From: Caldifarciminota bacterium
Lineage (GTDB): Bacteria; Hydrothermota; Hydrothermia; Hydrothermales; JAJRUZ01
DNA length: 64,000 nt
Direction of reading: 5' to 3'
NCBI GenBank assembly: GCA_024277525.1
Contig: JAJRUZ010000019.1
Span: 1 to 64,000 of the forward strand
The notes under the pieces: generated by a model
Database searches by the model: none
What the model was told of the DNA's origin: nothing
Seen by the model: the letters and a program-made list of their open reading frames with translations, nothing else
Part shown: positions 1 through 54,887 of the stretch, piece after piece
How the letters are laid out: every line of letters starts with the position of its first letter
How positions within the stretch are numbered: the first letter of the stretch is position 1
Made by a program: the position numbers and the translations under genes

Positions 1-1377
1 TGATTTAAATTTTTGTCAAATATAAAATAGTTTTCTCCTTTTCTGAAAAATTTGCTGAATTTTGCAATTTTTCTTCCTGAAATATCAAAAATATCTATAA
101 ATACCCTATCATCAGAAGGAAGTAAGAGATAAAGAACAGGATTACCCGAATCGTAATAAATATAGGAATTGAAAGAATAATTTGTATCAGGCAAAAGAGT
201 ATCTGTTTTATAGACTGCTAAGAAATCCTCATGGGCGTAGATGAAATAGTTTTTATAAATAATAGGAAAACACCAAGAAGGCCAGATGGCATTACTTGAA
301 GGTAAGGCGAGTTTTAAAACCGGTTCTCCACTTGTTAAATTTTTTATAACATATATAAAATCCAGATTCGTAGCCCACAATATGCCAGATACAGTAAATA
401 AAGGGTCCCCCCCCTACCTGCTTCTGGTCTTATCGGGGTGAAATAAAAATGAATTTTTAGTTCTCCGGTAGAAACATCTCTTGCCTGAAGATGTGTAAAA
501 ATTGTGTCCCCTGTGCCGTATTCTCCATAAGAAAACCATAAATTACTTTCATAAAATCTTATAGGCATGTTAAACAAACCGGAAACTTTTTCTTTTAAAT
601 TAGGAGAACCTGAAAAAACATCTATTCCGAACAAAGTATCGGTTGAGAAAAAGAATATTTTATTATCATAAATTGATAGCCAGGCGATTCCTCCCGGTGC
701 ATCAAAAAACCATATTGAATCTCCTGTTATATAATTCCTCGCCTGCAAAAAACCTCCTCCTTTGTGAAAAATCACACCACTATAATAAGCAGGAACCCCT
801 CCCCCTGAAACAGACCACAAAGAATCCCCTCTATATGTAAAAGCAAATATTTTTGACTTTCCGTAACTCGGAACATATATAAATGTGTCAACAACAATAG
901 GCTGACTCTGAACCGATTTTAATGTCTTTGCCCATTTCAATTCTCCCGTAAAAGGGTCCAAAGCATAAAATGTTGTATCAGAATCAGGATTGAACCCTAT
1001 CCATGTCCCTACAAATAATATTGAATCTCCCTCCGATAAAACGGATGTCATCGCATTCGCCGTAAGAACCCTCTCCCAGATAATCTGTCCCGTCTCAATA
1101 TCAACCGCCATTATCTTGTTCCATTCTATATGAGCCTTGGGAATAAAAAGCATATCTTGACCGGCACAACCCGATATTTCCGCTGTCCAGGATCCCGCTC
1201 CTCCCCAGTTCCATTGCCACTTATATTCCAAAGGCGGATATAAAACAAAAGGATAATATCCCGTATGCTGTGCATTATATCCGAGCATTCGCCAGCTGTA
1301 TTTGTCAGGTCCTTGATACTGCCTGATTAATGAAGGATTTATATAATAACCTTCTTTTATTTTTATTAAATTTTCAC

Positions 1378-1401
1378 TCGCGGTTCGGAAACCGCTCCTA
1401 C
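1378..1401 (-). repeat. Palindromic repeat copy 1, GTAGGAGCGGTTTCCGAACCGCGA, inside ORF (read as RSGFRTA)
   Basis: Direct match; GCGGTT-TCCG-AACCGC stem-loop. Confidence 0.9.
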
Positions 1402-1503
1402 TGAGATTCGGGGAGCGGGAATCGGGATTCGGGTTTCGGGATGAAGATTTTTTAAAATCAAAAGGTATTAATTCCTTTCCCGATATAAAATATTCTTTCA
1501 CTT

Positions 1504-1527
1504 TCGCGGTTCGGAAACCGCTCCTAC
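1504..1527 (-). repeat. Palindromic repeat copy 2 inside ORF (read as RSGFRTA)
   Basis: Identical 24-mer to copy 1. Confidence 0.9.
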
Positions 1528-1609
1528 CATAATAAACCCTTAATTTCAAATTCGCATTTTTCCTCCATTTATCCTTTGTCACCCATAAAATCGTGTCTTT
1601 TAAAAATTT

Positions 1610-1633
1610 TCGCGGTTCGGAAACCGCTCCTAC
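1610..1633 (-). repeat. Palindromic repeat copy 3 inside ORF, in a different frame (read as VGAVSEPR)
   Basis: Identical 24-mer; translated as V-G-A-V-S-E-P-R. Confidence 0.9.
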
Positions 1634-1937
1634 ATCTGAATAAATATTTCTGTGAAAACCTACAGGATAATCCTTTCCCTTATAATTATAAATCAATTCT
1701 ATCTTTTGGACCCCTTTTCTTAAATAATACTCCACCATAATTGATGATGAATCCTTTGAAATATAACCTTTTACATAATAAGCAAAAAGAAAAACAAAAA
1801 ATTTCATATTTTTATTATAATTATTTCTGAAATCAGAATCAAAAAATAATAATTTAAACCCTTCATTTAATTTAATAAAATATACTTCTCATTTCGACGA
1901 TAACTTTCTGACTTCAATGGCAAACATGAGTTATTCT

Positions 1938-3567: not shown

Positions 3568-5797
3568 CCCTCACCACTATTGCTGTCATGTTTACAATAT
3601 CCTGTACATCATCGCCTTTTTGCAGAACATGAACAGCCATCTTTGTTCCTAAGAGAATGGGACCTATTACCTGAGCATTCCCTAAGCGTTGCAATATTTT
3701 ATATGAAATGTTTGCTGCGTCAAGATTCGGGAAAATTAAAACATTTGCCCTCTCTTTTAATTCGGAGAAGGGATAAAATTCTTTGATTATCTGCGGAACA
3801 AGGGCGGTATCCGCCTGCATTTCACCATCAGCAATAACATTCGGTGCCTTCTGTTTAAATATCCGAACAGCCTTTCTTATTTTTTCCGTTTCTTTTGATT
3901 TTACACTTCCGAAATTTGAAAAGGATAAAAATGCAACCTTGGGTGTGATTCCCATTTCTTTTGCTAAATTTGCAGCAAGTAACGCAATTTCGGCAAGGGT
4001 TTCGGAATCAGGATTTATATTTATTGTGGCATCCGCAAAAAAGAAAACCTCATCTTCAACAATCACAATGTAAAGACCCGCTGCATGAGATACATTTTCT
4101 TTTGTCTTTATTATCTGTAATACAGGTCTCACTGCATCAGCATAATCAAGTGTTAAACCTGTCAAAAGTCCATCAGCATCTCCTTCATGAACCATCATGC
4201 TTCCGAAAACAGTAGGATTTGTAAGCATGTAGTATGCCCATTGTCTCGTTATTCCCTTTCTTTGCCTCATATTGAAAAGTTTTTCCGCATAAATCTCCCT
4301 TTTCGGTGAAATCACAGGATCAACTATTTCGTATTCAAATGATAGTTTTAACCTCTCGATTTTTTGCTTAATTATATCTTCTCTTCCGAGTAACACAACC
4401 CTTGCAATTCCTTCATTTGCAACAATGTTTGCAGCCCTTATGATTTTTTCATGTTCTCCCTCCGCATATACAATTTTCATGGGTTTCCTTTTCGCTTCCT
4501 GAATAACAATGTGCATAACCCTTCCGCCTTTGAGTGCCTTGGCTTTCAATCTTTCTTTGTATTCCTCTATATCAATCTTTACCCTTGCAACTCCTGTCTC
4601 AATTGCCGCCTTAGCAACCGCAGGAGCTTCCCAGAAAACAACCCTGGGATCAAGTGGTTTCGGAATTATGTAATCCGGTCCGAATTCAATCCTGTCCACT
4701 CCGTATGCTCTTGCAACGGAATCAGGAACATCTTCCCTTGCAAGTGCTGCAAGAGCTTTTGCTGCTGCAAGTTTCATTTCATCATTGATTTTTCTCGCCC
4801 TTACATCAAGAGCACCCCTGAAAATAAAGGGAAATCCCAGAACATTATTCACCTGATTCGGGTAATCACTTCTTCCTGTTGCAACTATTGCATCGGGTCG
4901 TGCGGATTTTGCATCTTCATAAGGAATTTCGGGATCAGGATTCGCCATTGCAAATATTATGGGTTTGTCAGCCATTCTCTTAACCATTTCTTTTGTTACC
5001 ACATTTCCTATGGATAGACCTACAAAAACATCTGCACCCTCAAGTGCTTCTGCAAGTGTTCTCTTATCTGTCTCAACCGCAAATTCTTCTTTAAACCTGT
5101 TCATACCTTCCTTTCTACCCTTATAAATGACTCCTCTGGAATCACACATTATCAAATTTTCCTTTTTTACCCCGAGTAATAAATAAAATCTTGCACACGC
5201 AATAGCAGATGCACCCGCACCGTTAAATACCACTTTGACCTCGTCAATCTTTTTACCGACAAGTTCAAGTGCATTTAAAAGCCCTGCTCCTGAAATTATC
5301 GCTGTGCCGTGCTGATCATCATGAAATACCGGAATATCAAGTTCTTCTTTTAATCTTTCTTCAATTTCAAAGCATTCGGGAGCCTTAATATCCTCAAGAT
5401 TTATTCCGCCGAAAGTGGGAGAAATCAATTTGACGGTCTTAATAAATTCTTCAATATCCTCGGTGTCTATCTCAATATCAATTGCATCAACATCTGCAAA
5501 TCTTTTGAAAAGAACACATTTTCCCTCCATAACCGGCTTTCCAGCAAGTGCTCCTATATTTCCAAGTCCGAGAACAGCAGTTCCGTTTGAAATAACAGCA
5601 ACCAAGTTCCCTTTTGCTGTATATTCAAAAACAGTTAAAGGATCTTTTGCTATCTCCCTGCACGGTTCCGCAACTCCGGGTGTATAAGCAAGGGATAAAT
5701 CTCTCTGTGTCTCACAAGGCTTTGTTAATTTGATCTCTATTTTTCCTTTCCTTCCTTTGGAATGATAATCAAGGGCTTCTTCACGTGTTATTTTCAT
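3545..5797 (-). CDS. maeB: NADP-dependent malic enzyme with C-terminal phosphotransacetylase-like domain
   Basis: [45 protein letters not shown], plus a C-terminal PTA-like domain (750 aa). Confidence 0.93.
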
Positions 5798-17457: not shown

Positions 17458-19905
17458 TCAAGGAAAAGCAATTTCCTCAAAATCAGTATAATTTTTGTTC
17501 CATAAAAACATTCCCAGCCCCGCAAATCCCTTTGTCCTTAAATCCTTTGAATTCTTTACGAAAATCCCGTCAGGCATTCCGAGACCCGAAGCAAAAAGAG
17601 AGATTTTAAAAGCATCCCTTATCTGATTTTTGTCCGAATAAATTATAAATAGATTCATATTTTTATAAGAAAAAGGATAGGAAGGATAGACAAATATTAA
17701 AAGGTCATCATAAATTCCGTATTTTTTAAAAATTTTTTGAGGCAATTTTTTAATAACTTCTTTCACTTCACCCTTAAAAGAATTCTTCTGCCCTATGAAT
17801 ATAACATTGTATTCTGATAACATTTTTTTATTAAATAAAGTATCAGGCAAAATTTTGACATTCATATTTCCTCTGAAAAGCAAGGAAAAGGAGAGAATCC
17901 GAGCAAGATGATAATTCCAGTTTATAATTCCTTCTGTCCCGGTTCGGAAACCGCTCCTGCTGCCTTTATCTTCTTGTGTACTGTAAATAATCAAAATTTT
18001 ATTCCTCAATATATTCTTTATAAGACCGGGATTTGATGGAAATTTTGAGGGCATTTTTCTGTTGAAATTTTTAATTTTTTTCCATTTTTTGTTTTTAATG
18101 AAAACGAATTTACCCGCATTCTTCAAATCAAAATTCTGACCATCAAGATTTAAAAATATTTTCTCAATTCCTAAGGAAGCAAGGTTTAATTCAAAGACAT
18201 TTATATTTTCGGTTTTAATAAAGATACTGTCTTTTTTTCTTTTAAATTTTAAAAATCCGGGATAAAAATATTTTTCGGGTTCCAGAATTTTAACATAATA
18301 AAATCTATTATTTACGCCCAGATCCGAAAAATGAAACTCAAAAGAATCTGGAACCCTCCTTTTATGTTTTTTGAAAAATTTTATTATTGTATCCGCATCA
18401 ACACAATCAACTCCCTCTGTTTCTTTTATGTTCCACCAGTGCTTCATTTCGGGTACTTCCCATAGATGAACTTTAATGCCGTTTTTCTTTAAAAGATTCA
18501 GCATAAACCTCGGATGAAAGGCAGGAACGGATTCATCTTCCCTGCCCTGAACTATCAGAAAGGGAACATTTAAGGCATTTCTTACAAACCTCTGAATGTC
18601 CTCTGTATATAAAACTCTCTCCCTTATACGAATCTGTTGAGGATTTCCGAAAAGACTTATTCCTTGAAGAAAATAGGGCACGTATGTTCTGAAAGATACC
18701 CACCCTGCAGAAGGAACAATTGCAGCAAACCTGTCCGCAAAATGAATTCCGTTAAAATAGGTTCCGTGTCCTCCCATTGAATGCCCTGTTAGATAAAACC
18801 TTTCTGTATCAACATTGAAGTTTTTCTTAACATAATCAATAACTTCCCATAAATCAAGCATTCCTAAATCCTGCCAGTCAAATCCGAAAGGTCTTCTGTT
18901 TGTGGGAGCAACAACGAACAGGGAATCCTTTTGTCTGTAAGCCCTTACCTGTCCGTATGCCTCAACACCTGCACCGTGAAGGGTAAATATGACGCCTTTT
19001 AAATAATTTCCTTTAACCTTAGGATACCTTAAACCGAAATACTGAACAGAGGAATCTATATTTGACAAAAATGTAATTTTCAGGGGTTCATCCTTTGATT
19101 TTACTTCAAGATAAAATTGAGCAAGAGTGTCAAAGTTTTCTCCTTCAATTCTTAAACTGAGATTTATTTTATCTCCTTTCTTTAATTTTTTTCTGAGCAA
19201 ACATTTGACTTTTGAATATTTTATTTCAAACGGCATTAAATAGTTAATCCTCCTTTCCTCTGTTTCCAGTTCACCGGCAAATGCCTTTATTTTTAAATCT
19301 TTGTATATTTTTTTTGTCGGATTTATAACCCAGAAACCTATATAAAATTCATAAATTGTATCCTCCAATATATCGGGAATTAAACTCCATCTTTTATTTT
19401 CATAAATAAACGGATATAAAGGAGCTTTTTCGAATCTCAATCTTATTTTTCCGCCCTCTCTGCCTGTAATTATTAAAATCCTGTGCCTTCCTTTGCTTAT
19501 ATATAAAGGAACAGGAACATCTTTATACTGATAAGGGTTTCCGGGATAGGGAATTGAATCTATGTAAAATTTAGATACCCTTTCGGGATAGGCAAGATAA
19601 AATCCTCCATCAAATATTGTATCAATATAGATATAAGAGACAGTGCTAAAGCTCCATCCGTGATAGGAATATTCCCTTTCCAGTTCTTTTTCATTTATCT
19701 TTATTTCAAAATACCCTTGAGAATCAACTTTTATTTCCTTCCACAAGAGAATCCCGTTTTCTGACAAGGTTGAATAAAAGGTGTCGTTTAATGAAATTAT
19801 ATATTTTTCTTCCCCGGGTGGATAAAGGAAATCCCTGCCTACATCCCTCATTCCTGATTGAAAAGGACCGAGAAAATAAATTTTTGATAATAATATAAGT
19901 ATCAT
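17458..19905 (-). CDS. Secreted alpha/beta-hydrolase (esterase/prolyl-oligopeptidase-like)
   Basis: GVIFTLHGAGVEAYGQ; FYLTGHSMGGHGTYFNGIHFADRFAAIVPSAG; VPFLIVQGREDESVP; LWEVPEMKHWW. Confidence 0.8.
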   Translation of the reverse strand: MILILLSKIYFLGPFQSGMRDVGRDFLYPPGEEKYIISLNDTFYSTLSENGILLWKEIKVDSQGYFEIKINEKELEREYSYHGWSFSTVSYIYIDTIFDGGFYLAYPERVSKFYIDSIPYPGNPYQYKDVPVPLYISKGRHRILIITGREGGKIRLRFEKAPLYPFIYENKRWSLIPDILEDTIYEFYIGFWVINPTKKIYKDLKIKAFAGELETEERRINYLMPFEIKYSKVKCLLRKKLKKGDKINLSLRIEGENFDTLAQFYLEVKSKDEPLKITFLSNIDSSVQYFGLRYPKVKGNYLKGVIFTLHGAGVEAYGQVRAYRQKDSLFVVAPTNRRPFGFDWQDLGMLDLWEVIDYVKKNFNVDTERFYLTGHSMGGHGTYFNGIHFADRFAAIVPSAGWVSFRTYVPYFLQGISLFGNPQQIRIRERVLYTEDIQRFVRNALNVPFLIVQGREDESVPAFHPRFMLNLLKKNGIKVHLWEVPEMKHWWNIKETEGVDCVDADTIIKFFKKHKRRVPDSFEFHFSDLGVNNRFYYVKILEPEKYFYPGFLKFKRKKDSIFIKTENINVFELNLASLGIEKIFLNLDGQNFDLKNAGKFVFIKNKKWKKIKNFNRKMPSKFPSNPGLIKNILRNKILIIYSTQEDKGSRSGFRTGTEGIINWNYHLARILSFSLLFRGNMNVKILPDTLFNKKMLSEYNVIFIGQKNSFKGEVKEVIKKLPQKIFKKYGIYDDLLIFVYPSYPFSYKNMNLFIIYSDKNQIRDAFKISLFASGLGMPDGIFVKNSKDLRTKGFAGLGMFLWNKNYTDFEEIAFP
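17938..17960 (-). repeat. Palindromic repeat copy 4 inside the hydrolase ORF (SRSGFRTG)
   Basis: GCAGGAGCGGTTTCCGAACCGGG, near-identical to copies 1-3. Confidence 0.85.
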
Positions 19906-54603: not shown

Positions 54604-54887
54604 GAGGGACTTTTGTCCCCTAACGTTGAGGGGCTTTACCCCTCAAACTCCCCGAAATTCTAATTTTTATTCAAAAAGGAGACAGCTCCGCTGTCTCGGG
54701 CTTTGCCCCTCAAACTCCCCGAAAATAAATTTGAAAAAAATTAAAAATTAAAAACAGGGGGTTTGGGGGACTTTGTCCCCTAACGTTGAGGGGTTTCACC
54801 CCTCAAACTCCCCGAAAATTTTTATTTTTGATAAAAAATTCAGAGACAGCTCCGCTGTCTCGGGCTTTGCCCCTAATTCACCCGAAA
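54604..54887. repeat. ABAB array of hairpin-rich modules
   Basis: A at 54604-54656 and 54765-54818 (GGGAC..GTCCCCTAACGTTGAGGGG..CCCCTCAAACTCCCCGAAA); B at 54679-54724 and 54843-54887 (GAGACAGCTCCGCTGTCTCGGGCTTTGCCCC). Confidence 0.9.

Follow-up and report, generated by a model that had tools for sequence, protein, structure and literature searches.

The stretch of 64,000 nucleotides analysed here (the window) carries near its start, on the minus strand, an ORF of 487 aa (1807..344) for the first part of a PQQ/BamB-like beta-propeller protein (344..1807; Pfam PF13360, E 2.4e-9). Within this ORF the 24-mer GTAGGAGCGGTTTCCGAACCGCGA occurs three times as an exact match, always on the minus strand and in frame, at 1610..1633 (copy 1), 1504..1527 (copy 2) and 1378..1401 (copy 3), so that the three copies span about 90 codons of the host gene. 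Translation bore out the original prediction that one copy, copy 1 (codons 59-66 of the gene), adds the peptide VGAVSEPR and the other two RSGFRTA. Copy 3 is adjoined by a tract of CCCGAAT/CCCGATT heptamers (1405..1440, minus strand) that is translated in frame as RNPNPDSRSPN, and a fourth copy with two mismatches lies at 17937..17960, also on the minus strand, where it is read in frame as RSGFRTG in an S9-peptidase/esterase-like ORF (17458-19905). Chance or low complexity was ruled out as the origin of the 24-mers, since shuffles gave an expectation of zero occurrences in the window even when three mismatches were allowed. The window also holds, at 54612-54883, two near-identical copies each of a 66-nt and a 41-nt repeat (GAGACAGCTCCGCTGTCTCGGGCTTTGCCCC...), spaced about 160 nt apart.

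The reading frame of the host gene is lost at a homopolymer at 407-414 (C8 on the plus strand, G8 on the minus strand), at which its paralogue on contig C22 is intact. Past the frameshift the gene continues at 3..380 (minus strand) as a C-terminal part with a sorting-tail-like sequence, and this continuation matches the end of the C22 gene with 96% DNA identity over 269 nt. The loss of frame may represent decay to a pseudogene, phase variation or an assembly error, and the window gene (C7) may not be translated at full length.

Are the three segments insertions, or are they old parts of the protein? The original prediction had proposed a comparison with a repeat-free orthologue, and a sister genus has one (L081, 47% identity, with a weak Por_Secre_tail match of its own). 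All three segments are absent from it, which rules out that they are ancient conserved protein segments, and because of this absence we conclude from the aligned sequences that they are true in-frame insertions. At the site of copy 1, L081 reads HKNQY-PYKELKDE versus HRNIYSDVGAVSEPRKFLKDT in the window gene, a net gain of exactly eight codons. At the site of copy 2, RSGFRTA is absent from L081 but the net gain is only about five codons. At the site of copy 3 the whole stretch RNPNPDSRSPNLSRSGFRTA is absent, heptamer tract included, for a net gain of about 18 codons, and this third insert is composite, the CCCGAAT/CCCGATT tract being followed by the 24-mer. Heptamer arrays of this type (CCCGAAT/CCCGATT/CCCTAAT) are found at about a dozen loci in all, many of them directly beside copies of the repeat, examples being window 1405-1440, C85:174-267, C66:22177-22207 and C58:4241-4299.

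The genome to which the window belongs (G000) is a draft of 2.34 Mb in 102 contigs, 96.5% complete, and a search of it for the 24-mer, as the original prediction had called for, revealed a dispersed family with about 60 members: allowing up to one mismatch, 60 sites match the pattern GTAGGAGCNNNNTCCNNNNNGCGA and none its reversed control. Each 24-nt unit consists of GTAGGA, a stem of GCGGTT and AACCGC around the loop TCCN, and a final GA. Foot (GTAGGA) and loop are almost fixed among the 67 copies fetched; the unpaired 5′ foot has its G in 67/67, T in 55/67, A in 65/67 and G in 65/67, so that it reads GTAG or GCAG in nearly every copy. The stem has undergone compensatory changes at four of its six pairs (9-20 GC/CG, 10-19 GC/AT, 11-18 TA/CG and 12-17 TA/AT), and the RNA is predicted to fold into a 6-bp hairpin with a four-base loop at -8.2 kcal/mol. 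GTAG comes directly after a T in 48 of 62 copies, which is consistent with a Y1-type site preference; the TnpA-REP of E. coli cleaves at CT (PMC8266576). About three quarters of the roughly 60 copies are intergenic and most copies are singlets, with inverted pairs at C37, C65, C69, C6 and C85. By a hand count, 23 of 68 copies (about a third) lie within 500 bp of a contig end, versus about 4% expected.

That the three copies in the window gene are base-identical, despite the many variants in the family, might be taken to mean that a single unit was inserted and then copied locally by ectopic gene conversion or duplication. We regard this as improbable, because the flanks of the three copies are unrelated past one to three bases, their reading frames differ, and the exact window variant is found at the unrelated loci C8, C32 and C69 as well.

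The family is a GTAG-type REP. GTAG repeats have been reported from Proteobacteria, Cyanobacteria, Chloroflexi and the PVC phyla in 24 named families (PMC3733652), and in-gene GTAG REPs that add in-frame peptides, with even two insertions per gene, were published in 2013 (Di Nocera et al., PMC3733652). The units described here share with that superfamily the GTAG foot, short stem, small loop, dispersal, inverted dimers, units in frame within ORFs and a frequent position between genes or near gene 3′ ends. Superfamily members have stem-loops of 6-13 bp that compensatory changes maintain; such a stem-loop is present here with a 6-bp stem, as are the unpaired foot and the dispersed, mostly extragenic copies. 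What differs is the WOR-3-like lineage, one gene holding three single units, and the lack of a RAYT in the draft. Likewise, the REPIN-RAYT/BIME systems of Pseudomonas and E. coli (PMC3116915, PMC8266576) resemble our family in having a foot plus hairpin, some inverted pairs, a T before the foot and, in other repeat-bearing genomes, RAYT genes (one of them with this REP type), and it is unlike them in consisting mainly of singlets, in having in-gene copies and in that no RAYT was detected in the genome. REPs within tnpA-REP genes that do not disrupt the frame were described in 2018 for TnpA-Y1 subclass 2.4 (PMC6006769); the frame is also kept here, and the RAYT ORF of B36_G15 ends in a REP (VGAASQPR), whereas the hosts in our genome are ordinary cellular genes. 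The original prediction had likened the repeat both to REP units and to the Rickettsia palindromic elements, and the first comparison holds, as this is a coding palindromic element of REP type. The second is an analogy only: Rickettsia elements are also palindromic mobile units that add in-frame peptides to unrelated proteins, but they are CGTC-tagged or about 150 bp (PMC10969869, PMC3733652) while the window units are 24 nt and GTAG-tagged, and membership was ruled out by the foot (GTAG/GCAG, not CGTC).

Other GTAG-foot palindrome families, such as GTAGCGGTGCGATTTATCGCAC and GTAGCCGCAGGCTTTAGCCTGCGA, occupy the same intergenic sites (REP flanks in L052, L056, L040, L038, L058 and L046). In addition, several contig ends (L057, L046, L062 and L040) share a longer repeat, TTTATCTTTATTATTTTAAAGG...TTTTCCCT, after which comes the REP variant GACTTCCGAGTCGCGA; the two together are a candidate for a larger mobile unit.

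What spread these units through the genome? The search for a RAYT gene that the original prediction had suggested had a divided outcome. In the 96.5% complete draft there were no matches to PF01797 or NF047646, a search with the RAYT of L143 as query (run without a positive control) gave no match, and three genomes of the same family have neither REPs nor PF01797. Among other genomes found to carry the same 24-mer, all ten have PF01797 (Y1-type) genes, nine above the cut-off and one weak, versus 5 of 41 for our genome together with its relatives, a contrast that is to be read as an association because the two sets were picked differently. One of the repeat-bearing genomes, that of WOR-3 bacterium B36_G15 (L143), encodes a RAYT (NF047646, 132 bits vs a cut-off of 80) whose ORF includes GTAGGAGCGGCTTCCCAGCCGCGA at its 3′ end (1933-1956), translated in frame as VGAASQPR. 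The REPs that flank a RAYT in CG08_40_26 (Candidatus Stahlbacteria) have a different stem. The host lineage itself appears, from the organisms that share the repeat, to lie near WOR-3/Stahlbacteria.

We infer that the RAYT has been lost from this genome or was left unassembled; the draft may have missed it, given that about one REP in three sits so close to a contig end. With no RAYT found in the draft, the REPs may no longer be mobile. Did the units instead spread independently of a RAYT, for instance by another transposase or by template switching at hairpins? No Y1 transposase of any kind was detected in a 96%-complete draft and singlets predominate, as such a process might lead one to expect, but we consider it unlikely given the Y1 genes in every one of the ten other genomes with the 24-mer, the REP within the 3′ end of one RAYT, and the ease with which a REP-flanked RAYT is missed at contig ends.

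Single copies and clusters are found in frame in several other genes of the draft, encoding KdsB (C21), a TauE/SafE permease (C47), a LUD/4Fe-4S protein that contains a three-REP cluster (C69), an FG-GAP protein (C55), a short aspartyl-protease-like ORF (C32) and a 190-aa ORF (C92), and the stop codon of a BadF/BadG gene is supplied by a REP at C32:6290. In the TauE/SafE gene the REP directly follows another repeat that is translated in frame, CCCCCCTTCACCAAGGGGGA (L053, about 5325-5356; NPPAPLHQGGK + VGAVSKPR). The in-gene copies are read in the two open sense frames, in agreement with the original prediction, which had correctly stated that the remaining sense frame stops at TAG but had left aside that the antisense strand is open in all three frames, such that five of the six frames of the hairpin are stop-free. 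A clean REP insertion never shifts the frame because 24 nt is eight codons. The KdsB copy is not such a clean insertion. At its site a non-REP segment of equal length is present in REP-free sister genomes, whereas the proteins of order- and class-level relatives, like solved structures, are shorter there by about seven residues. The REP therefore replaced existing sequence or landed in a loop that was already extended, if it did not arise otherwise.

The in-gene copies are also biased in orientation. Excluding the mixed-orientation clusters of C69 and C55, single in-gene copies are in sense orientation in 8 of 8 cases, for which the probability at random orientation, with two sense versus three antisense open frames, is about 0.4^8, or roughly 0.0007. 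Intergenic copies between co-directional genes are also more often sense (14 vs 5 antisense), and allowing for this background raises the probability to about 0.03. Numbers are small and the three copies of one gene may be non-independent, making this bias a lead only; GC skew tracks local gene direction in these fragments, and replication and transcription are not separable as the cause of the bias. Fragments of other genomes also have candidate in-gene REP ORFs, several of which are overlapping antisense frames.

The history of the insertions in the beta-propeller gene is recorded in its paralogues. The intact paralogue on C22 (at least 600 aa) has copies 2 and 3, and its copy 1 is reduced by a 9-nt in-frame deletion with no other damage. 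Copy 2 is common to C22 and a truncated paralogue on C84, and copy 3 is common to C22. The paralogue on C84 retains the gene only up to copy 2 and that on C83 only up to copy 1, and past their breakpoints both continue into one common downstream sequence; from their positions, these breakpoints fit a deletion between two direct REPs. The host family has a fifth 5′ fragment (L099, C68:46574-46756), which contains no REP and whose homology stops 7 bp short of the REP1 position. The window and C22 genes are 90.6% identical over the 170 nt to the left of copy 1 versus 97.6-99.0% to the right, and their synonymous divergence is 0.42 in codons 1-57, 0.06 in codons 58-170 and 0.68 in codons 171-466. 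This pattern would be read most simply as gene conversion, one edge of which lies at copy 1 or close to it. That REP1 and REP2 lie at truncation and gene-conversion boundaries suggests recombination at the repeats. The overall dN/dS between the two genes is 0.31, which indicates that the REP-bearing versions have been maintained as proteins.

Although this constraint, the identity of two REPs between C7 and C22 and the packing of three copies into so few codons could suggest recruitment of, and selection for, the REP peptides or mRNA hairpins, for instance as a stem-loop with a role in processing or regulation in the N-terminal region of a surface protein, we think this very unlikely because two frames yielding unrelated peptides are used, 9 nt of the first REP on C22 have gone without further damage, L081 manages without the segments, the host proteins are unrelated, and the identical C7/C22 block covers non-REP DNA, so that gene conversion explains the identity. 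A wider proposal combines the boundaries and the orientation bias, namely that in-gene REPs act as recombination joints that reshuffle secreted beta-propeller genes (deletion between REP1 and REP2, truncation at REP1 or REP2, conversion from REP1) and that REPs preferentially enter genes in sense orientation, as if inserted into the transcription-exposed coding strand. Taken jointly, these two ideas are possible but doubtful.

The explanation that we favor, and consider very probable as a whole, is that the segments are GTAG-type REP units, non-autonomous mobile hairpins that were inserted in frame before the host gene was duplicated. On this explanation, 24-nt hairpin units would have entered the secreted beta-propeller gene in frame, ahead of the duplication, presumably spread by a RAYT (TnpA-REP, an HUH/Y1 single-strand nuclease recognising GTAG plus hairpin) that was later lost or is absent from the assembly. 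They could have persisted within genes by virtue of a length of exactly eight codons, a stop in only one of six frames, and the placement of their peptides in tolerant stretches; the peptides that they add are probably without a selected function. Copies within the same gene may then have served as short homologies for deletion and for gene conversion between paralogues.

Among open papers we found no earlier one on palindromic elements in candidate division WOR-3. The kind of repeat has been known since 2013; what is apparently undescribed in the open literature is its occurrence in this lineage, a gene into which single units were inserted three times, and paralogues with boundaries at REPs. 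Our analysis puts coding REP elements on record for an uncultured lineage and illustrates how coding DNA can take up a 24-nt mobile unit neutrally, the unit adding eight codons and having five open frames. The paralogues provide deletion and conversion boundaries that are marked by REPs, and a REP-rich genome with no detectable RAYT, beside sister genera that are REP-free, is a useful case for the study of REP spread and transposase loss.
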